A program made the translations under genes and the position numbers. A stretch of DNA of 64,000 nucleotides, taken from positions 62,001 through 126,000 of the forward strand of contig CANFHC010000003.1 in assembly GCA_947446575.1 (NCBI GenBank), in the 5' to 3' direction. Below, in pieces: positions 1-7,286 of the stretch. The notes under the pieces are model-generated. The model saw only the letters and a list, made by a program, of their open reading frames with translations, did not search any database and had not been told where the DNA came from. The stretch comes from Bacteriovoracaceae bacterium (GTDB lineage Bacteria > Bdellovibrionota > Bacteriovoracia > Bacteriovoracales > Bacteriovoracaceae). Numbering within the stretch: position 1 is the first letter of the stretch; each line of letters begins with the position of its first letter.

Positions 1-1556
1 ATGGCACCAGGCTCTGCCTTTAAGAAGAGAAAAGATTCGTCCGCGACTCTATAGGGAAAGATAGATTTAAAACCAGCATAATAAAAAGTACTAGCAATGA
101 CACTGTTGCTTATCACATGTCGGTCATTAAAGACTTGAGTAAGTCCTACTCGGCCTTGGTATTTATTTTTACTATAGTCTTCTTTGTTGTAAAAAGGTGC
201 ATCTAAAACCACAAAGCCATTTGGATTGAGGGTATGGCGAACGTAAGTATAAAACTCGACACTATAGAGCCTGGCGAGGTCATACGAATTTGGATAAGGA
301 AAATCTATAAAAACTGCATCGTACTTATCATTAGTATTTCTCACATAATAAAATCCATCATTAATTTCAGAATGTACTCTTGGATCATCGAGCGAATGTT
401 TATTGAGTTCAGCAAATCGCGTCTTAGCCAAATCGATCATCTTTTGATCTAGCTCGATATGCTTAATAGATTCTATTCCTTTATACTTTAAAAGTTCGCG
501 TAAGAGTAAGCCATCCCCACCACCTAATAACAAAACTTTTCTAGGAACAACTTTATTCATAACGACTGAAACGTGGGCAAAGGCCTGATGATAATAAAAT
601 TCTGTTGTCGTATTAAATTGAAAATTTGTATCTAAGGTCAAAATAGTTGAATCGGAAACTTTTCCATCTTCAGAAGTTGGATAAGTAAAAATGTCGACGT
701 ATTGATATAATGACTTTTGGCGTTCAACTGGTTTAAAGTTATCAACCCTTCGAACTAAATCATCTATGTCAGTACTGTTTTGTGCCAAAATCTTTGGAAG
801 GTAATAAAATAATTTTAAATACCGTTGAGTGATACTGTATTCATTCAATCCTATGATTGAAATTAACAATAAAATAAAAGTAATGAATCCAGAATAAAAT
901 ACTTTTTTGGCTTTTGCATATTTCACAATACAAAAAATACAAACTAGTAAATTCAAAAGAGCCACGGCAACTGATGTTTTTATAACATCTAGCTTAGGAA
1001 GCAGAAAATAAGCAAAACAAATTGTTCCGACCAATGTCCCTAGGTAATTTATCCCTAGAATTTGATGCTCCCCTTCTTCCGAAATACCCAGGCGATCTTC
1101 TGCTATTTTCATCATTAAAGGTATTTCAAATCCCGACAAAAGCCCAATTGATAACGTTAGAGATTGAATCAGAAGAAAAAAGACGATTTTTAAAAGAAAC
1201 ATATTCTGCAAATAAAAAGACGAGTAAAAATCACCCGTATAAAAAAAGAGGTTATCCACATACTTATAGCTTCCATGAAAGATATAAACATAAACAACAC
1301 AAATAGCTCCTAAGAAGGCAAGGGCCAACTCAACATTGATTAAACTTTTATACGCATCTTTTAATCTATCTGAGTAATAGGCTCCAAGCCCTAAGCCACC
1401 GATGTAAACACCAATGGTAAGCGATTGCCACCAAATATAATTTCCTGTAACAATGGCCAGTGTATTCGAGAGCAGTAATTCATAGACAATACTACAAAAA
1501 GCTAGGATTGAAGTAATGAGCAGTAATTCTATTTTTATTAAATTTCTTTCTTTCAT
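1..1556 (-). CDS. Membrane-fused spermidine-synthase-like aminopropyltransferase, 3' end cut by window edge
   Basis: Read by hand on the minus strand: open from the ATG at 1556 to base 1, 518 codons, probably almost complete. The first ~230 residues are a multipass membrane domain. The rest is a Rossmann aminopropyltransferase domain with LLGGGDG (about residue 344), the IELDQKM acidic motif and NDGFYYV. Members transfer aminopropyl from decarboxylated S-adenosylmethionine to an amine acceptor. The acceptor pocket looks altered. The usual DxxDP reads DFPYP, keeping Asp418 but with Tyr421 in place of the second Asp. LDGxxQxxxxDExxYHE reads LDTNFQFNTTTEFYYHQ. The product may therefore not be standard spermidine. 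The start overlaps the stop of the upstream decarboxylase fusion (TAATG), so the two are translationally coupled. Fold is clear; substrate is not. Confidence 0.8.
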   Translation of the reverse strand, partial: MKERNLIKIELLLITSILAFCSIVYELLLSNTLAIVTGNYIWWQSLTIGVYIGGLGLGAYYSDRLKDAYKSLINVELALAFLGAICVVYVYIFHGSYKYVDNLFFYTGDFYSSFYLQNMFLLKIVFFLLIQSLTLSIGLLSGFEIPLMMKIAEDRLGISEEGEHQILGINYLGTLVGTICFAYFLLPKLDVIKTSVAVALLNLLVCIFCIVKYAKAKKVFYSGFITFILLLISIIGLNEYSITQRYLKLFYYLPKILAQNSTDIDDLVRRVDNFKPVERQKSLYQYVDIFTYPTSEDGKVSDSTILTLDTNFQFNTTTEFYYHQAFAHVSVVMNKVVPRKVLLLGGGDGLLLRELLKYKGIESIKHIELDQKMIDLAKTRFAELNKHSLDDPRVHSEINDGFYYVRNTNDKYDAVFIDFPYPNSYDLARLYSVEFYTYVRHTLNPNGFVVLDAPFYNKEDYSKNKYQGRVGLTQVFNDRHVISNSVIASTFYYAGFKSIFPYRVADESFLFLKAEPGA

Positions 1557-2626
1557 TAGAATTTCCCGCCAAAATAAAATCTTTGAACAATTATTTCATT
1601 TACTGCATCTGCATTGAAAATCATCAGCCCCCAAACAATAAGCATTATCCAAATTATAATTTGATATTTCTTGCTTTGAATTTTCATTTTATTCATTACA
1701 AAAAATGCAATTAATATATTGATCAATGAAACGACGTAACCAATTGTGAAAATATGTAAACTTGGCAAGATGAATATCGGAAAAAGTATAGCGCCCAAAA
1801 GTGTTCCGAGATAATCATATGCTAATACAAAATGTCCCTTGGTAACTTTAAACTGTTTACTCATGTCCATTAGTAATGGCAATTCCAGACCAGATAAAAA
1901 GCCGATGGCCACGATGAGCAAATGATTCACCGTAAAGAGAGGCATTTGCACCCATGAAGAAAAAAATGAAATTCCAGAGACTTTAGCAAATTTATTAAAA
2001 AGGAAATCAACGGCTAAAACTAAAATCGGCGCAACTCCACCAACCATAGAGAGAAGGAGTTCAACTTTAATAAATTCTTTAAAGTAATCTTTTGAAATTA
2101 ATTTTTTATAAAGAAGTGCACCAAACCCCATGGACGCTATAAATAGACCGATTGTTAAGTTATAGCGAAGTGCTGTATTTCCCATCGTCGTCGAAATAGA
2201 TTGAGCCAATAAAAATTCATATAAAATACTACAGCAAGCAACTACCACTGTTAAAAAATAAACCATGTTCAAGTTGCGATTATCTTCTATATGTCCAATT
2301 CTTCCACGTTCAACGATTCTCGAATCAATTTTTTCAAAGGGAACAACTGCCCTAATTTCTTCTACTATTTTTTCTAAATTAGTTTCTAAGTTACACACAT
2401 ATATATCCATCGAAAGATATCGATTTTCTGGGTATGTATGGATTGAAAAATGTGACTCTGACAAAATGAATACAATTGTTTCTCCATGAGGAGAAAATTT
2501 ATGTTCTACTTTTTTTATTACGGTTAGATTCTTTTCAATAATATCTTTAATTGCATCAATGTCTGCATCGGTGAAATCTCTTTCGCAGACAGCATCTAAG
2601 AGTAAATGTTGGGACCTCGTGTCCAT
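1556..2626 (-). CDS. speD: S-adenosylmethionine decarboxylase fused to a spermidine-synthase-type membrane domain
   Basis: Residues 1-115 are a bacterial AdoMet decarboxylase proenzyme, which makes the aminopropyl donor for polyamine synthesis. SESHFSIHTYPE holds the self-cleavage Ser58 (pyruvoyl precursor). His63 and Cys78 follow at the same +5 and +20 offsets as Ser63/His68/Cys83 of the Thermotoga enzyme. Residues ~119-350 are about seven membrane segments clearly homologous to the N-terminal membrane domain of the next gene: CSILYEFLL versus CSIVYELLL, GFLSGLELPLLM versus GLLSGFEIPLMM, and DYLGTLLGAI versus NYLGTLVGTI. Free-standing SpeD is usually about 120-140 residues, so the membrane fusion is unusual. 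The gene begins 6 bases after the acyltransferase stop with a GAGAGG ribosome site. Confidence 0.85.
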   Translation of the reverse strand: MDTRSQHLLLDAVCERDFTDADIDAIKDIIEKNLTVIKKVEHKFSPHGETIVFILSESHFSIHTYPENRYLSMDIYVCNLETNLEKIVEEIRAVVPFEKIDSRIVERGRIGHIEDNRNLNMVYFLTVVVACCSILYEFLLAQSISTTMGNTALRYNLTIGLFIASMGFGALLYKKLISKDYFKEFIKVELLLSMVGGVAPILVLAVDFLFNKFAKVSGISFFSSWVQMPLFTVNHLLIVAIGFLSGLELPLLMDMSKQFKVTKGHFVLAYDYLGTLLGAILFPIFILPSLHIFTIGYVVSLINILIAFFVMNKMKIQSKKYQIIIWIMLIVWGLMIFNADAVNEIIVQRFYFGGKF

Positions 2627-2632
2627 ATTAAG

Positions 2633-3763
2633 TTATCCTCTCTTTTGCAAAATAATTTCACCCATATGGGTTTTTTTAATAAGATAACAGACTAAAATCG
2701 TAATCCCGACATATGTATAAAGTTCCCAAGTAGAAGCACTAAGTGTGCGCCCAGTAAGGCTTCCAATCATGACGATTAATGGAGCCAGAATTCTTACGAA
2801 GAACACTCGATGGAAAGCGAAAACCAAAAGTGAGTGCATACCAACCCACGAGATAACCGGAACATTAAAACGAATAGATCTTTTCTCCATCCACAAAAAT
2901 GCAGAAATAACCATTGCTTGGATTCCAATAATATAAAATGTTCCGCTTAATGTTCTAGCAAGATCGTGCTCATGCATAAATGCATTAGCAGGATCGATAA
3001 CAAATGGATCTCCATAAGCTACATAAAAAGCAACGAGAACAATTCCCATCAAAAAGAAATAATAGTCTTTGAGTTTTTTCATGTTGGGTTTTTGATAATG
3101 AACATACCCCATTATAAATCCTAAGCACCCCGAAGTGAAAAAATATTCAAGTCTAGCATCGTACTCAAAACCAGGATGGATATTGTAAATGATTATACTT
3201 TGGAAAAAGTTTGATAATATTTCCATTGGTAATATCCATCTGAAAAAAGATAAGACTGTTAGGATTAGGATTGCTTGAACTCCCAATAGGCTATAAGCAA
3301 TAGAAAGAATTGCTAAAACAACCATCCACAACATTATGGGATAAATAGAAATCGCCTGACCGAAATTTGGGGCAACAATACAATTTTCCATAAAGAAGAA
3401 AATAAATATCAATGCAAACATTTTAAGTTTTGCACTCAACTCATCCTTGAAGAGTAGTTGAGACTTTCGGGCCAAATTAAAGGCTGCTAAAGTGAGATAG
3501 ACTTGACTCACCCAAGGTGTAAAAATGAGGCCCAGCATATGGTTAAAATGATCAGTCGCTATCTGATGACCAATCATTGGAAAGTGAATTTTATATGTAG
3601 AAGTTAGAGCTATCGAATCACGAAAGTACTCCACGTACCACATGTTAATGTAGTACGTGAAATGTTGGTCCATTGCTAAGATGATAAAAAAACCGCGCAA
3701 GAAATCTAAGTTAACAATCCTTGTCTTAGAAATTTCTTCATCGTTATTTTTGCTCAGTGACAT
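2633..3763 (-). CDS. Multipass membrane protein, acyltransferase-like (OpgC/DUF1624/HGSNAT type)
   Basis: This 376-residue protein has about ten hydrophobic segments. Near the N-terminus it carries NLDFLRGFFIILAMDQHF (residues ~18-35), the LDxLRGxxixxMxxxH signature of membrane acyltransferases such as OpgC, YeiB-like DUF1624 and heparan-glucosaminide acetyltransferase relatives, in which the His is proposed to act in acyl transfer. Such enzymes modify glycans or other envelope molecules. I cannot name the substrate. The start overlaps the end of the upstream secreted protein gene by 20 bases, and speD follows 6 bases after the stop, so it belongs to that operon. The family call rests on one motif plus topology. 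Confidence 0.55.
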   Translation of the reverse strand: MSLSKNNDEEISKTRIVNLDFLRGFFIILAMDQHFTYYINMWYVEYFRDSIALTSTYKIHFPMIGHQIATDHFNHMLGLIFTPWVSQVYLTLAAFNLARKSQLLFKDELSAKLKMFALIFIFFFMENCIVAPNFGQAISIYPIMLWMVVLAILSIAYSLLGVQAILILTVLSFFRWILPMEILSNFFQSIIIYNIHPGFEYDARLEYFFTSGCLGFIMGYVHYQKPNMKKLKDYYFFLMGIVLVAFYVAYGDPFVIDPANAFMHEHDLARTLSGTFYIIGIQAMVISAFLWMEKRSIRFNVPVISWVGMHSLLVFAFHRVFFVRILAPLIVMIGSLTGRTLSASTWELYTYVGITILVCYLIKKTHMGEIILQKRG

Positions 3764-6700
3764 CCTTATCTTTCTTCTTTGTTAAAACTTTATCGTAGTT
3801 TCTAATATAAGCATTTGTTACTTTTTCAAAAAGAGTCTGCTCTTCTTTTGAGCTGTACTTATCTTTGTTCGCTTTATTGCGAGCTTCGATTGCCTCAGCT
3901 AATTTTTTGCTGTCTTCATCGCTTAGTCCAGAACCTGTCCCAGACTCGATGGCTGACGCCGCATTTTGGTCATCAGTGCTCGTTGATTTTCCTGGAGATA
4001 AATGCACCCCAGTAGAACTTGAAGCTCCTCCAGAAGGTAAGCCTCCACCAAAAGCACCGCTAAATTTATTTTTATCAGACTTTTTATTATCATCAGACAA
4101 ATCTTTAATTCCTAAACCATCTGTACCGCCACTCCCAAACAATCCAATTCCAGAAGATAGTCCCTTAGATCCCGAAAGCGGTTTTGCAAATGAAGCTGCA
4201 AAATTCTTAGAGGCAGAAGCTACTTTAGTGGCCCGATCAGCGTTTCCACTTGTGGCAATCGCTTTTTTGTATGTGTCTAATTTTTTCAATTGCTCTTTTC
4301 GAGTGTTACGAAGAGTACCGATCGCATTTAAGAAACTTGATTGATCTGCAGTTAAACTTACGTTGCCTGAAATTCCTGCCCCCTTCGCTGCAGTACTAAT
4401 TCCCGCTGCATTTAGATTTGATAAGTCAGTATTTCCGGCCATAAGTGCATTTAGAGTCAATTGATTATTAAGATCCTTTTTCGCCTGATTAATTTGGGCA
4501 TCTAATAATTTTAATCTAGTAGCATCCGATTGATTAATAGGTTGATCACGATATAACTGCAGTGTATTTAAATAATCTTCTAGATATTTCGAATTTAAGT
4601 TACCAAATGTTTTAGAAGCGTTCCCTGCTCCGACGGCTAAAGTACCTGCTACACCATTTGACATTAAATCTAAATATGTCGTTAAACCAACAGTTGGATA
4701 ACTAATTTCTTTTGAGCGAGAAGTTTTTGGCCATAAGAAATGATATTCATAAGTATAATCTGCAAATTTATCTAAATTTTCCGTTTCCTTAGAACACCAT
4801 ACTTCTTGGCTGATTTTAGTACAATATTTTGAATCCAATAATTCTGCAGAAGGATTTTGCACTTGCTCAGCAAAAAAGAATTTTTCTTTAATGGCGTAGC
4901 CAATAGCAGCTTTCTTGATTTCTGCAATAATTTTGTCATCTAAAATATAGCGTTTATCATCCACTCCGATTTTTGGTGTATATGATCCAAGAACATCTGA
5001 GTCTACAAAAAGTGTTCTCATATAGTCTTCAGAAACGTAAGCACCTCCCCCCTTATCACCTCCGCCACCAACAGCTCCTGGATTTTTAGCAATCATATTA
5101 TTTTTTGCTGCTTGAAATCCATCTTCTAGTTTATGAGCGTAGTCACGATCATCGTTGGCATCTCTAATAATTAGAGTTTTTGCTACCCCATTTGGAATCC
5201 AAGGGTCAACTATATAGCGAGGATCTGAAAGATCTTTGTTTGAGACCACAAAGTTTTTAATACAAGCGTTCGCTGAAGTGTGAACGTTACAAATTTTATT
5301 AAATGGTTGCTTAAGAGTTCTATCCCAATCCTGACATGTTTCTTTTTTACCACAACTGTAGCTTCTTACAAATTTGTCTACAACTTCTGGTCGTTTTGAA
5401 ATCCATGCACCTTTAAGTGAAGCAATTAACCACAATCCTGTACCACCAGTAATTGCAGAAGTTGCAATGATACCCGCCGCTGCCCAAGCTGTTAAAATAG
5501 ATGTAGTCGCAAATCCACCCATAACAGCGATAATACCTGCTGCCAATAAAGCACCAAGAATTGCTCCCATTGCAGCCACACTTCCACTAGGGTTTTTCAT
5601 TGAAAAAGTGAATAAAGAGTAGGTTTTTGTATCAGCATCATTCCACTTTGCTTCATTTGCTGACCATTGAGAAATGTCTGCTAATTGTTTTGAAATGGAA
5701 GTATTGTCTACTGTTAATGAAGCATTAAACGCTTGAAGATTTTGCGTCCAAACTGTAATAAGTTTTTTTCCTTTTACTCCTGAAGCAGCTTCTGTTGCAA
5801 TCTTATCAACCGTTGTTTTAACACAATTACAGTTTGCCTCACCACTTGCACAAGTTTGCGGTCCATCAGCTGTATCTTTATAACAGACATCTCCTGCTTG
5901 AGTAGCAGTGTATTCTTCACAAGTTTCAAAGAAACTTTTTTTAGCTGGATCTTTAATATTGTCATGACCGACAACATCGAGACACATACAAGTTAACTTT
6001 CTATTTATTTTATCAATTTTTTCATTAGTAGTTTTTCTTAAAGCTTGATGGGCAATGGCGACATTTTTTAAACGACCGTAAATTGAAGATGATGGATCAG
6101 ATCCACGCGTCCAATAATCGTTAACTCCATCACCAGAAAGCATAAAATCAAAAGAGACTAAGGCCAGTTCTAAATCTAATAAATTATTTGTCTTAAGATA
6201 TTTTGAGAAGTCATCTCTAAATCGAATGTCACAAGTCTTAAAATCTGATTTTCTTTCAAGCGTGAATACTGGAGCCTTAACTGTTACTCTATCTGCTTGA
6301 GCAGATTCTGCTCTAAAATTTTCATATGTGTCATGATCCGCATTAACTGTATCGTATGCTTCATCCGCTTGAGCTGATGAAATAAATAAAGCAGTCATAG
6401 CAATAAAAGTTTTTTCTATAAAGTGAGTACGAACTTGTGGCAATACACTTGGTGGAACATCCGGAACACAAATGCCTTTATCATTTAAATATAAGCCTTC
6501 GCAGCACTTTTGTCCGCGTTCAGGTTTCTTTCCATTTTTTACACAGTCTTTACAAATATAAGCTTCTGAGCAACGATTGCTTTCACATGAGTTTGAGCAA
6601 CAATCAACATTCTTTTTACAAGATTTTCCTTTTGAAGAACATTCTCCAATTCCAGATGTATTAGAGTTAAAAGCTAAGCACTCTCCTTCTCCGCATACTG

Positions 6701-7286
6701 GATTAATTAAACAAGATTGACCAAGATTAAGTGGCTTGAAACATCTATAAACTTCTTCGCAGTATCTTTTGTTCTTTTTCTTATTTAACGTACAAGAAGA
6801 TGAACAACAGTCTCCATCATCTTTACACTCCAATCCAACTTGACTGCATTTGGGGCCACTTTTTTGTTTAGGATCTGGTGCACATTTTAATCCGTCTTCA
6901 CAACTCCAATTATTGCAAACCTGTCCTTCTTTAGTTTTTGTGACTTGAGTTTTGTTAATTTCACTTAATTGATTTTCTACAAATTTATAAAAAGCTTCTT
7001 CTGTCTTATCGGCATCAGTTGGCTTCTTAGCAAAATCTTCATAGTTTTTTTTGATCGTAACCATCTCTTCACGCGTGAACTTTTCTTGTTTGTAATAAAC
7101 GTCAAGTTCGTCATAAAGACCTGGCTTAATAATCTGTAGGTCCACCTTGCCCTTATTCTCTACTTTGTGAGCAGCAATACCTTGCTTCACTTCTTCCATA
7201 AACTTTTTTTGATCAGCGTCTGTGAAACGTGATTTCGCAAAAGCAAAATTGAAAGTTAGTGCAAATAGAATTAAGATTTTTAACAT
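3744..7286 (-). CDS. Large secreted/envelope cysteine-rich protein of unknown function
   Basis: 1180 residues. A signal peptide spans residues 1-17 (AFA/KS). Residues 124-273 contain clustered cysteines with two clear DCCSxSC modules (DCCSSSC ~159-165, DCCSNSC ~228-234), suggesting an extracellular disulfide knot. Residues 290-306 form a second hydrophobic stretch ending in SSAQA/DEA, which looks like an internal signal peptide or anchor. At about 565-630 there is a long Gly/Ala-rich hydrophobic region. The C-terminal third is Ser/Gly/Lys rich and low in complexity. I do not recognise the family. It is the first gene of the operon with the acyltransferase-like protein and the polyamine enzymes. 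The start is supported by GAGG five bases upstream and a promoter 32 bases upstream. Confidence 0.8.
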   Translation of the reverse strand: MLKILILFALTFNFAFAKSRFTDADQKKFMEEVKQGIAAHKVENKGKVDLQIIKPGLYDELDVYYKQEKFTREEMVTIKKNYEDFAKKPTDADKTEEAFYKFVENQLSEINKTQVTKTKEGQVCNNWSCEDGLKCAPDPKQKSGPKCSQVGLECKDDGDCCSSSCTLNKKKNKRYCEEVYRCFKPLNLGQSCLINPVCGEGECLAFNSNTSGIGECSSKGKSCKKNVDCCSNSCESNRCSEAYICKDCVKNGKKPERGQKCCEGLYLNDKGICVPDVPPSVLPQVRTHFIEKTFIAMTALFISSAQADEAYDTVNADHDTYENFRAESAQADRVTVKAPVFTLERKSDFKTCDIRFRDDFSKYLKTNNLLDLELALVSFDFMLSGDGVNDYWTRGSDPSSSIYGRLKNVAIAHQALRKTTNEKIDKINRKLTCMCLDVVGHDNIKDPAKKSFFETCEEYTATQAGDVCYKDTADGPQTCASGEANCNCVKTTVDKIATEAASGVKGKKLITVWTQNLQAFNASLTVDNTSISKQLADISQWSANEAKWNDADTKTYSLFTFSMKNPSGSVAAMGAILGALLAAGIIAVMGGFATTSILTAWAAAGIIATSAITGGTGLWLIASLKGAWISKRPEVVDKFVRSYSCGKKETCQDWDRTLKQPFNKICNVHTSANACIKNFVVSNKDLSDPRYIVDPWIPNGVAKTLIIRDANDDRDYAHKLEDGFQAAKNNMIAKNPGAVGGGGDKGGGAYVSEDYMRTLFVDSDVLGSYTPKIGVDDKRYILDDKIIAEIKKAAIGYAIKEKFFFAEQVQNPSAELLDSKYCTKISQEVWCSKETENLDKFADYTYEYHFLWPKTSRSKEISYPTVGLTTYLDLMSNGVAGTLAVGAGNASKTFGNLNSKYLEDYLNTLQLYRDQPINQSDATRLKLLDAQINQAKKDLNNQLTLNALMAGNTDLSNLNAAGISTAAKGAGISGNVSLTADQSSFLNAIGTLRNTRKEQLKKLDTYKKAIATSGNADRATKVASASKNFAASFAKPLSGSKGLSSGIGLFGSGGTDGLGIKDLSDDNKKSDKNKFSGAFGGGLPSGGASSSTGVHLSPGKSTSTDDQNAASAIESGTGSGLSDEDSKKLAEAIEARNKANKDKYSSKEEQTLFEKVTNAYIRNYDKVLTKKKDKDVTEQK

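Follow-up and report, generated by a model that had tools for sequence, protein, structure and literature searches.

Homologous membrane domains on an AdoMet decarboxylase and an aminopropyltransferase-fold protein in Bacteriovoracaceae

Introduction

Why should two successive enzymes of polyamine synthesis both be fused to a membrane domain? At the start of a 64,000-nucleotide stretch of Bacteriovoracaceae DNA (the window), the gene for an AdoMet decarboxylase with a C-terminal membrane domain (SpeD-TM) is followed directly by that for an aminopropyltransferase-like protein with an N-terminal one (TM-SpeE). The initial annotation proposed that a duplicated domain lets both enzymes meet in the membrane and hand over decarboxylated AdoMet (dcAdoMet), or make or export a polyamine there. 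The arrangement proved to be real, conserved and apparently undescribed, and the mechanism that we infer for it is moderately supported.

Results

Both proteins carry a related seven-helix membrane domain

The SpeD-TM gene (1556–2626, minus strand; 356 aa) was delineated using its open reading frame, matches to PF02675 and NF002956, and an AlphaFold model (AF2; pLDDT 90, seven membrane helices). Its catalytic domain (residues 1–110; 2297–2626, minus strand) was aligned to 2iii, which placed the pyruvoyl Ser58 at 2453–2455, His63 at 2438–2440 and Cys78 at 2393–2395 (all minus strand). These autocatalytic residues, already read as intact in the initial annotation, are invariant in 17/17 orthologs. 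Residues 31–108 matched AdoMet_dc PF02675 (68.8 bits vs. a cut-off of 25), and the protein fell below the TIGR03330 equivalog cut-off (67.5 vs. 75.65 bits). A fold search of the PDB matched the SpeD fold of the model to 1vr7 (best), 2iii and 1tlu. One conserved proline is described as telling AdoMet decarboxylases (AdoMetDC) from SpeDA arginine decarboxylases (PMC10407285); P66 of the HTYPE motif, invariant among the orthologs, is a candidate for it. From the family match and the active-site residues, SpeD-TM is predicted to be an active class 1b AdoMet decarboxylase. The membrane (7TM) domain that follows (residues 117–356; 1559–2278, minus strand) has a predicted N-in/C-out topology based on the AF2 helices and on Lys plus Arg (K+R) loop counts. 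Residues 119–342 matched the NF002956 profile for membrane aminopropyltransferases at positions 19–227 (E 3e-39), and the helices hold invariant E137, E189, D207, E248, D271 and R154.

The reading frames of SpeD-TM and TM-SpeE share one base (TAATG). The window holds the first 518 of 571 residues of TM-SpeE (1–1556, minus strand); the gene runs 159 bases beyond the window start (full gene L003:9841–11556, 571 aa). Its AF2 model (pLDDT 86, seven membrane helices) shows a 7TM domain (residues 1–237; 846–1556, minus strand), also delimited by positive-inside counts and homology to SpeD-TM, and then an amphipathic helix at residues 239–259. The aminopropyltransferase-fold domain, with residues 270–518 inside the window (3–749, minus strand) and free of Cys there, contains the motifs GGGDG (510–524) and DFPYP (291–305; both minus strand). 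TM-SpeE matched Spermine_synth PF01564 (E 2e-30), and the SpeE fold of the model matched 1uir (best), 3anx and 4yuv in the PDB fold search. Scores were below the curated cut-off of TIGR00417 (115 vs. 249.55 bits), the whole-protein equivalog cut-off of NF002956 (273 vs. 472 bits) and the cut-off of NF037959, fused MFS/spermidine synthase (21.9 vs. 40 bits).

The two membrane domains are homologous, far beyond chance: BLASTP gave 32% identity over 209 aa (E 4e-27), and profile-profile comparison using hhalign gave a probability of 99.9 and an E-value of 3.6e-36 over 231 columns. The initial annotation had staked the relationship on such a profile comparison, and its account of the domains was borne out throughout: they lie at the C-terminus of SpeD and the N-terminus of the synthase, each has the expected seven or so membrane segments in its model, and the shared motifs that it named fall inside the 231-column alignment. 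Both domains carry invariant Glu residues in TM1, TM3 and TM4. Helices 5 and 6 of the modeled domain could form a re-entrant pair, which would count against the sidedness predicted below. PDB sequence and fold searches returned only SpeD and SpeE folds, with no usable match and no transporter fold for the membrane domain; a weak whole-length match to 9d7x (rmsd 14.6 Å) was set aside.

SpeD-TM and TM-SpeE are obligately paired in a conserved cassette

The full SpeD-TM fusion was found in 17/129 Bacteriovoracaceae genomes from six genera, and its hosts are predatory soil and marine bacteria. The names obtained in a GTDB scan gave the same lineage (Bacteriovorax, Halobacteriovorax and further MAGs of the Bacteriovoracaceae), and neither that scan nor 369 genomes of the phylum yielded a fusion outside the family. 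An apparent SpeD fusion in Filobacillus proved to be two adjacent genes. TM-SpeE directly follows SpeD-TM in all 17 genomes, with a gap of −4 to 8 bases; SpeD fusions that lack a neighbouring membrane synthase, which would have spoken against the proposed pairing, were searched for and none was found.

Two further genes belong to the cassette. Directly upstream of SpeD-TM in 16/17 loci (gap −4 to 12 bases), and at 2633–3763 (minus strand) in the window, lies the gene for a 10TM-like membrane protein with an acyltransferase-3-like signature, R..D..RG...H, for which a weak Acyl_transf_3 match (E 0.005) was obtained in 2/15 members. The first gene of the cassette across the 6 genera, ahead of the acyltransferase-like gene in those 16 loci, encodes a large secreted Cys-rich protein (3744–7286, minus strand; 1180 aa) with a signal peptide, a glycine-rich hydrophobic region and a CGKKETC motif; it has many invariant cysteines with knottin-like spacing. 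Neither partner has a confident Pfam family, the Cys-rich protein matching none at all, and no Pfam match to DUF350, DUF4178 or PspA was found among the cassette partners. A few kb past the window start, genes for TadE/Flp-like pilus proteins and for a prepilin peptidase-like protein are present (L003:648–2518), with two flagellin genes between them and the window.

The membrane-domain pair predates the SpeD fusion

Most Bdellovibrionota with a paired system have two membrane subunits and no fused SpeD. Outside the fusion loci, members of this phylum, including Bdellovibrio-type genomes, encode either a free membrane subunit of ~220 aa and then TM-SpeE, or a single TM-TM-SpeE chain. In the membrane-domain tree, the second-position (TM2) domains of all paired systems formed one clade (100/97), as did the SpeD-TM domains (100/99), and the solo synthases, from Clostridia, Bacteroidota and other groups, stood apart (100/100) in a set that included one long-branch row. 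Constraining all first-position domains to one clade was not rejected (p-AU 0.25). This clade pattern indicates that the membrane domain was duplicated first, that the pair is old in Bdellovibrionota and that SpeD was fused once, later; it also places the paired synthases in their own subgroup of membrane aminopropyltransferases. A duplicated domain that unites both enzymes stays plausible, although the duplication occurred before SpeD was fused and is not tied to that fusion.

Nearly all fusion genomes keep a separate cytosolic pathway

A separate cytosolic AdoMetDC and SpeE were also found in 16/17 fusion genomes. The second AdoMetDC is class 1a-like in the genus of the window and eukaryote-like class 2 in the other fusion genera. 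In the remaining fusion genome (G077, 92% complete), neither a separate AdoMetDC nor a separate SpeE was found. The fused SpeD had seemed to be the only AdoMetDC in most genera when PF02675 alone was used, which was refuted by the class 2 enzymes (PF01536). Among the 369 genomes of the phylum, 78/81 with the membrane domain had an AdoMetDC of either class vs. 162/288 without that domain, a comparison that ignores kinship. This association, together with the second pathway, fits dcAdoMet as the donor and a dedicated second role for the fused SpeD. Paired systems that lack a fused SpeD would need to draw their donor from the cytosolic pool, which counts against the scheme proposed in the Discussion.

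Other arrangements of SpeD were noted in passing. Many Bdellovibrionota (91/369 genomes) have a eukaryote-like class 2 AdoMetDC, which lies beside SpeE in the inspected loci (e.g., L204:3112–4047). Several Bdellovibrio-type genomes (G136, G142 and others) encode SpeD and SpeE in one frame of ~430–465 codons, a cytosolic SpeD-SpeE fusion. In Xenorhabdus and Pediococcus (L109, L111; also L113, L120, L132), a BpsA branched-polyamine synthase domain precedes SpeD in one fused chain; similar lengths occur in Enterococcus and Erysipelothrix.

The acceptor half of the synthase site is changed

In solved synthases, a first Asp holds the aminopropyl group, a second deprotonates the acceptor and a third fixes the distal end of the diamine in place (PMC10146546). 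The Asp of GGGDG (D348, equivalent to Asp104 of human SpdS) and D418 (Asp173) are invariant in 17/17 orthologs, whereas the Asp176 equivalent is replaced by Y421, likewise invariant in 17/17, in the motif DFPYP. Nearly all paired forms have Tyr or Phe at this position (DFPYP or DFPFP; DSTDP has become DFPYP), and they have neither the 'Q.ESPF' nor the 'YPGGFW' acceptor element, whereas solo membrane synthases retain D[FL]PDP. The donor-binding half of the site is therefore retained and the diamine-binding half lost. Moreover, the initial annotation's suggestion of a polyamine made at the membrane is weakened by the loss of the diamine-anchoring Asp and by the separate cytosolic SpeD and SpeE of the hosts.

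A related reading, in which the system is a synthase-exporter that releases free polyamine or an aminopropylated small amine into the periplasm as a surface-protecting polycation, with the membrane pair moving donor or product, is possible but not likely. The invariant glutamates of both membrane domains suit a cation path, the solo membrane domain is termed 'transporter-like' in the PSP study (PMC11237479), and P. aeruginosa SpeD2-SpeE2 (PA4773-PA4774) has been linked to surface spermidine, on evidence called marginal in PMC11107197; however, the synthase domain has lost both the Asp that anchors the diamine and the acceptor loop, and the membrane domain matches no transporter fold in the PDB.

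The same divergence might mean that the SpeE-like domain has lost its aminopropyltransferase function and serves instead as a binding or sensor domain, or uses AdoMet for another transfer. The scores below the NF002956 and TIGR00417 cut-offs agree with this, and METTL13-C offers a precedent as an SpdS-fold protein N-terminal methyltransferase (PMC6109062). We regard it as very unlikely, given that the GGGDG Asp and the Asp173 equivalent are invariant and that the SpeD fusion and the AdoMetDC association indicate dcAdoMet. Methylation of the N-terminus of eEF1A by METTL13-C also illustrates that the SpdS fold can evolve to act on a protein (PMC6109062).

As to what the acceptor may be, the large secreted Cys-rich protein is the candidate in the fusion cassette, as a lead only. 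A prepilin-like protein with a CxxC-type tail, typically [YFW]xCxxC, is encoded in 14/25 paired loci without a SpeD fusion, and none was found in 16 fusion loci or 14 solo loci. The last 70 residues contain GKK in 16/22 of these pilins, and most Cys-rich proteins have CGKKxxC; a test for homology between the large Cys-rich protein and the pilin-like proteins gave a negative result. Loci with [YFW]xCxxC prepilin-like neighbours include L169, L052, L054, L055, L059, L165, L166, L168 and L180. Beside another paired system, a pilin-like protein combines an N-methylation motif with a C-terminal Hint/intein-like domain (L051:4144–5658, minus strand).

The catalytic domains are predicted to face opposite sides of the membrane

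Per protein, SpeD-TM has 10.9 K+R in N-side loops vs. 1.2 in other loops, and TM-SpeE has 7.6 vs. 1.9. With seven helices in each domain, this bias suggests that SpeD is cytosolic and the C-terminal SpeE domain extracytoplasmic. The Cys content was also compared: the SpeE catalytic domain has 0 Cys in 5,449 residues across the 17 fusion-system (type A) orthologs, while the membrane part of the same proteins has 1.5% Cys and cytosolic SpeE, mostly from the same genomes, has 51 in 6,041 residues (0.84%). The SpeE domain is Cys-free in nearly all other paired forms too. Furthermore, three TM-TM-SpeE single chains (L165, L166, L168), which are kin to each other and not three independent events, have 6+7 helices, helix 7 of the first half being lost and a hydrophilic linker joining the halves. 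This count keeps the parity, so that both halves would lie parallel with the SpeE domain outside; an antiparallel (inverted) pair was rejected on the charge bias and these chains. Solo membrane synthases have the same N-in charge pattern, yet they keep Cys (0–4). If their catalytic domain were cytosolic, the predicted sidedness would fail for them and be weakened for the paired forms.

A hand-over between two enzymes on one side of the membrane, as first envisaged, does not fit this predicted topology. The corresponding reading, membrane-localised spermidine production with both catalytic domains cytosolic and the membrane pair serving only substrate channelling, draws on the obligate pairing and on the SpeD-SpeE single chains of Pelagibacter (PMC11107197) and Bdellovibrio-type genomes. 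It is nevertheless unlikely, because seven helices and the charge bias set the catalytic ends on opposite sides, the synthase domain is Cys-free and its diamine site lost, and 16/17 genomes have a separate cytosolic pathway.

Discussion

Domain homology, obligate pairing, the changed acceptor site, Cys depletion, the second pathway and the AdoMetDC association were all computed directly, and sidedness, donor passage and acceptor are what we infer from them. We give about even chances to the reading that SpeD-TM and TM-SpeE form a dedicated membrane-embedded two-subunit aminopropyltransferase, which takes its donor from inside and acts on an amine outside the cytoplasm that is not a free diamine. 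AdoMet would be decarboxylated by SpeD at the cytosolic side of one subunit. The two 7TM domains, which together have 14 helices and place invariant acidic residues within the membrane, would hold the complex together and probably let cationic dcAdoMet reach the outer face; the invariant TM1, TM3 and TM4 glutamates are what a cation path would need, and the transport itself is putative. The SpeE-fold domain, on the periplasmic face of the second subunit, would then aminopropylate an acceptor outside the cytoplasm. This acceptor would most probably be an amine carried by a surface protein or glycan that the Cys-rich and acyltransferase-like proteins of the cassette handle. Bulk spermidine would come from the separate cytosolic pair. 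Counting against this scheme, outward use of dcAdoMet would release MTA outside. A more specific version, in which dcAdoMet passes through the paired 7TM domains and aminopropylates a surface-protein amine outside, such as a lysine of the CGKK..C motif, is doubtful; its targets would be the Cys-rich protein here and, elsewhere in Bdellovibrionota, pilin-like proteins that carry CxxC at their C-terminus.

The closest known system is the PRK03612/NF002956 membrane aminopropyltransferase (the 7TM-spermine synthase of PspA operons, PMC11237479), which has a homologous 7TM domain and a SpeE fold; a separate SpeD gene adjoins its solo form in Clostridia and others. In contrast, the system described here has two membrane subunits with SpeD fused to one, a Cys-free catalytic domain, DFPYP rather than D[FL]PDP, a score below the NF002956 cut-off (273 vs. 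472 bits), and other gene neighbours. Class 1b SpeD proteins (T. maritima TM0655 and A. aeolicus aq_254) share the fold, the autocatalytic Ser/His/Cys and the HTYPE region with SpeD-TM, which differs in its attached membrane domain and in the second AdoMetDC of nearly all its hosts. NF037959 proteins likewise join a membrane part to a SpeE-like domain, although the match was weak. P. aeruginosa SpeD2-SpeE2 resembles the present system in being a second, dedicated pair of these enzymes with a link to surface polyamine; unlike SpeD-TM and TM-SpeE, it is not known to have a membrane domain. Its SpeE2 is a thermospermine synthase (PMC11107197). SpeD is also tied to a polyamine enzyme in the SpeD-SpeE (Ca. 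Pelagibacter, PMC11107197) and SpeD-SpeD (PMC10407285) fusions, but those are soluble single chains, whereas here the tie runs through paired membrane domains. No description of a SpeD-membrane fusion was found in the part of the literature covered.

The paired subgroup, with its natural fusions and changed acceptor site, offers a lead on the role of membrane-fused spermidine synthases. To our knowledge, aminopropyl transfer is known only inside cells and on free amines. If the proposed topology is true, the decarboxylase would work inside and the transferase outside, a layout new to polyamine pathways; aminopropylation of a surface protein, if true, would constitute a novel type of post-translational modification outside the cytoplasm. 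For these predatory bacteria, the locus may thus represent a new surface modification rather than ordinary spermidine synthesis.
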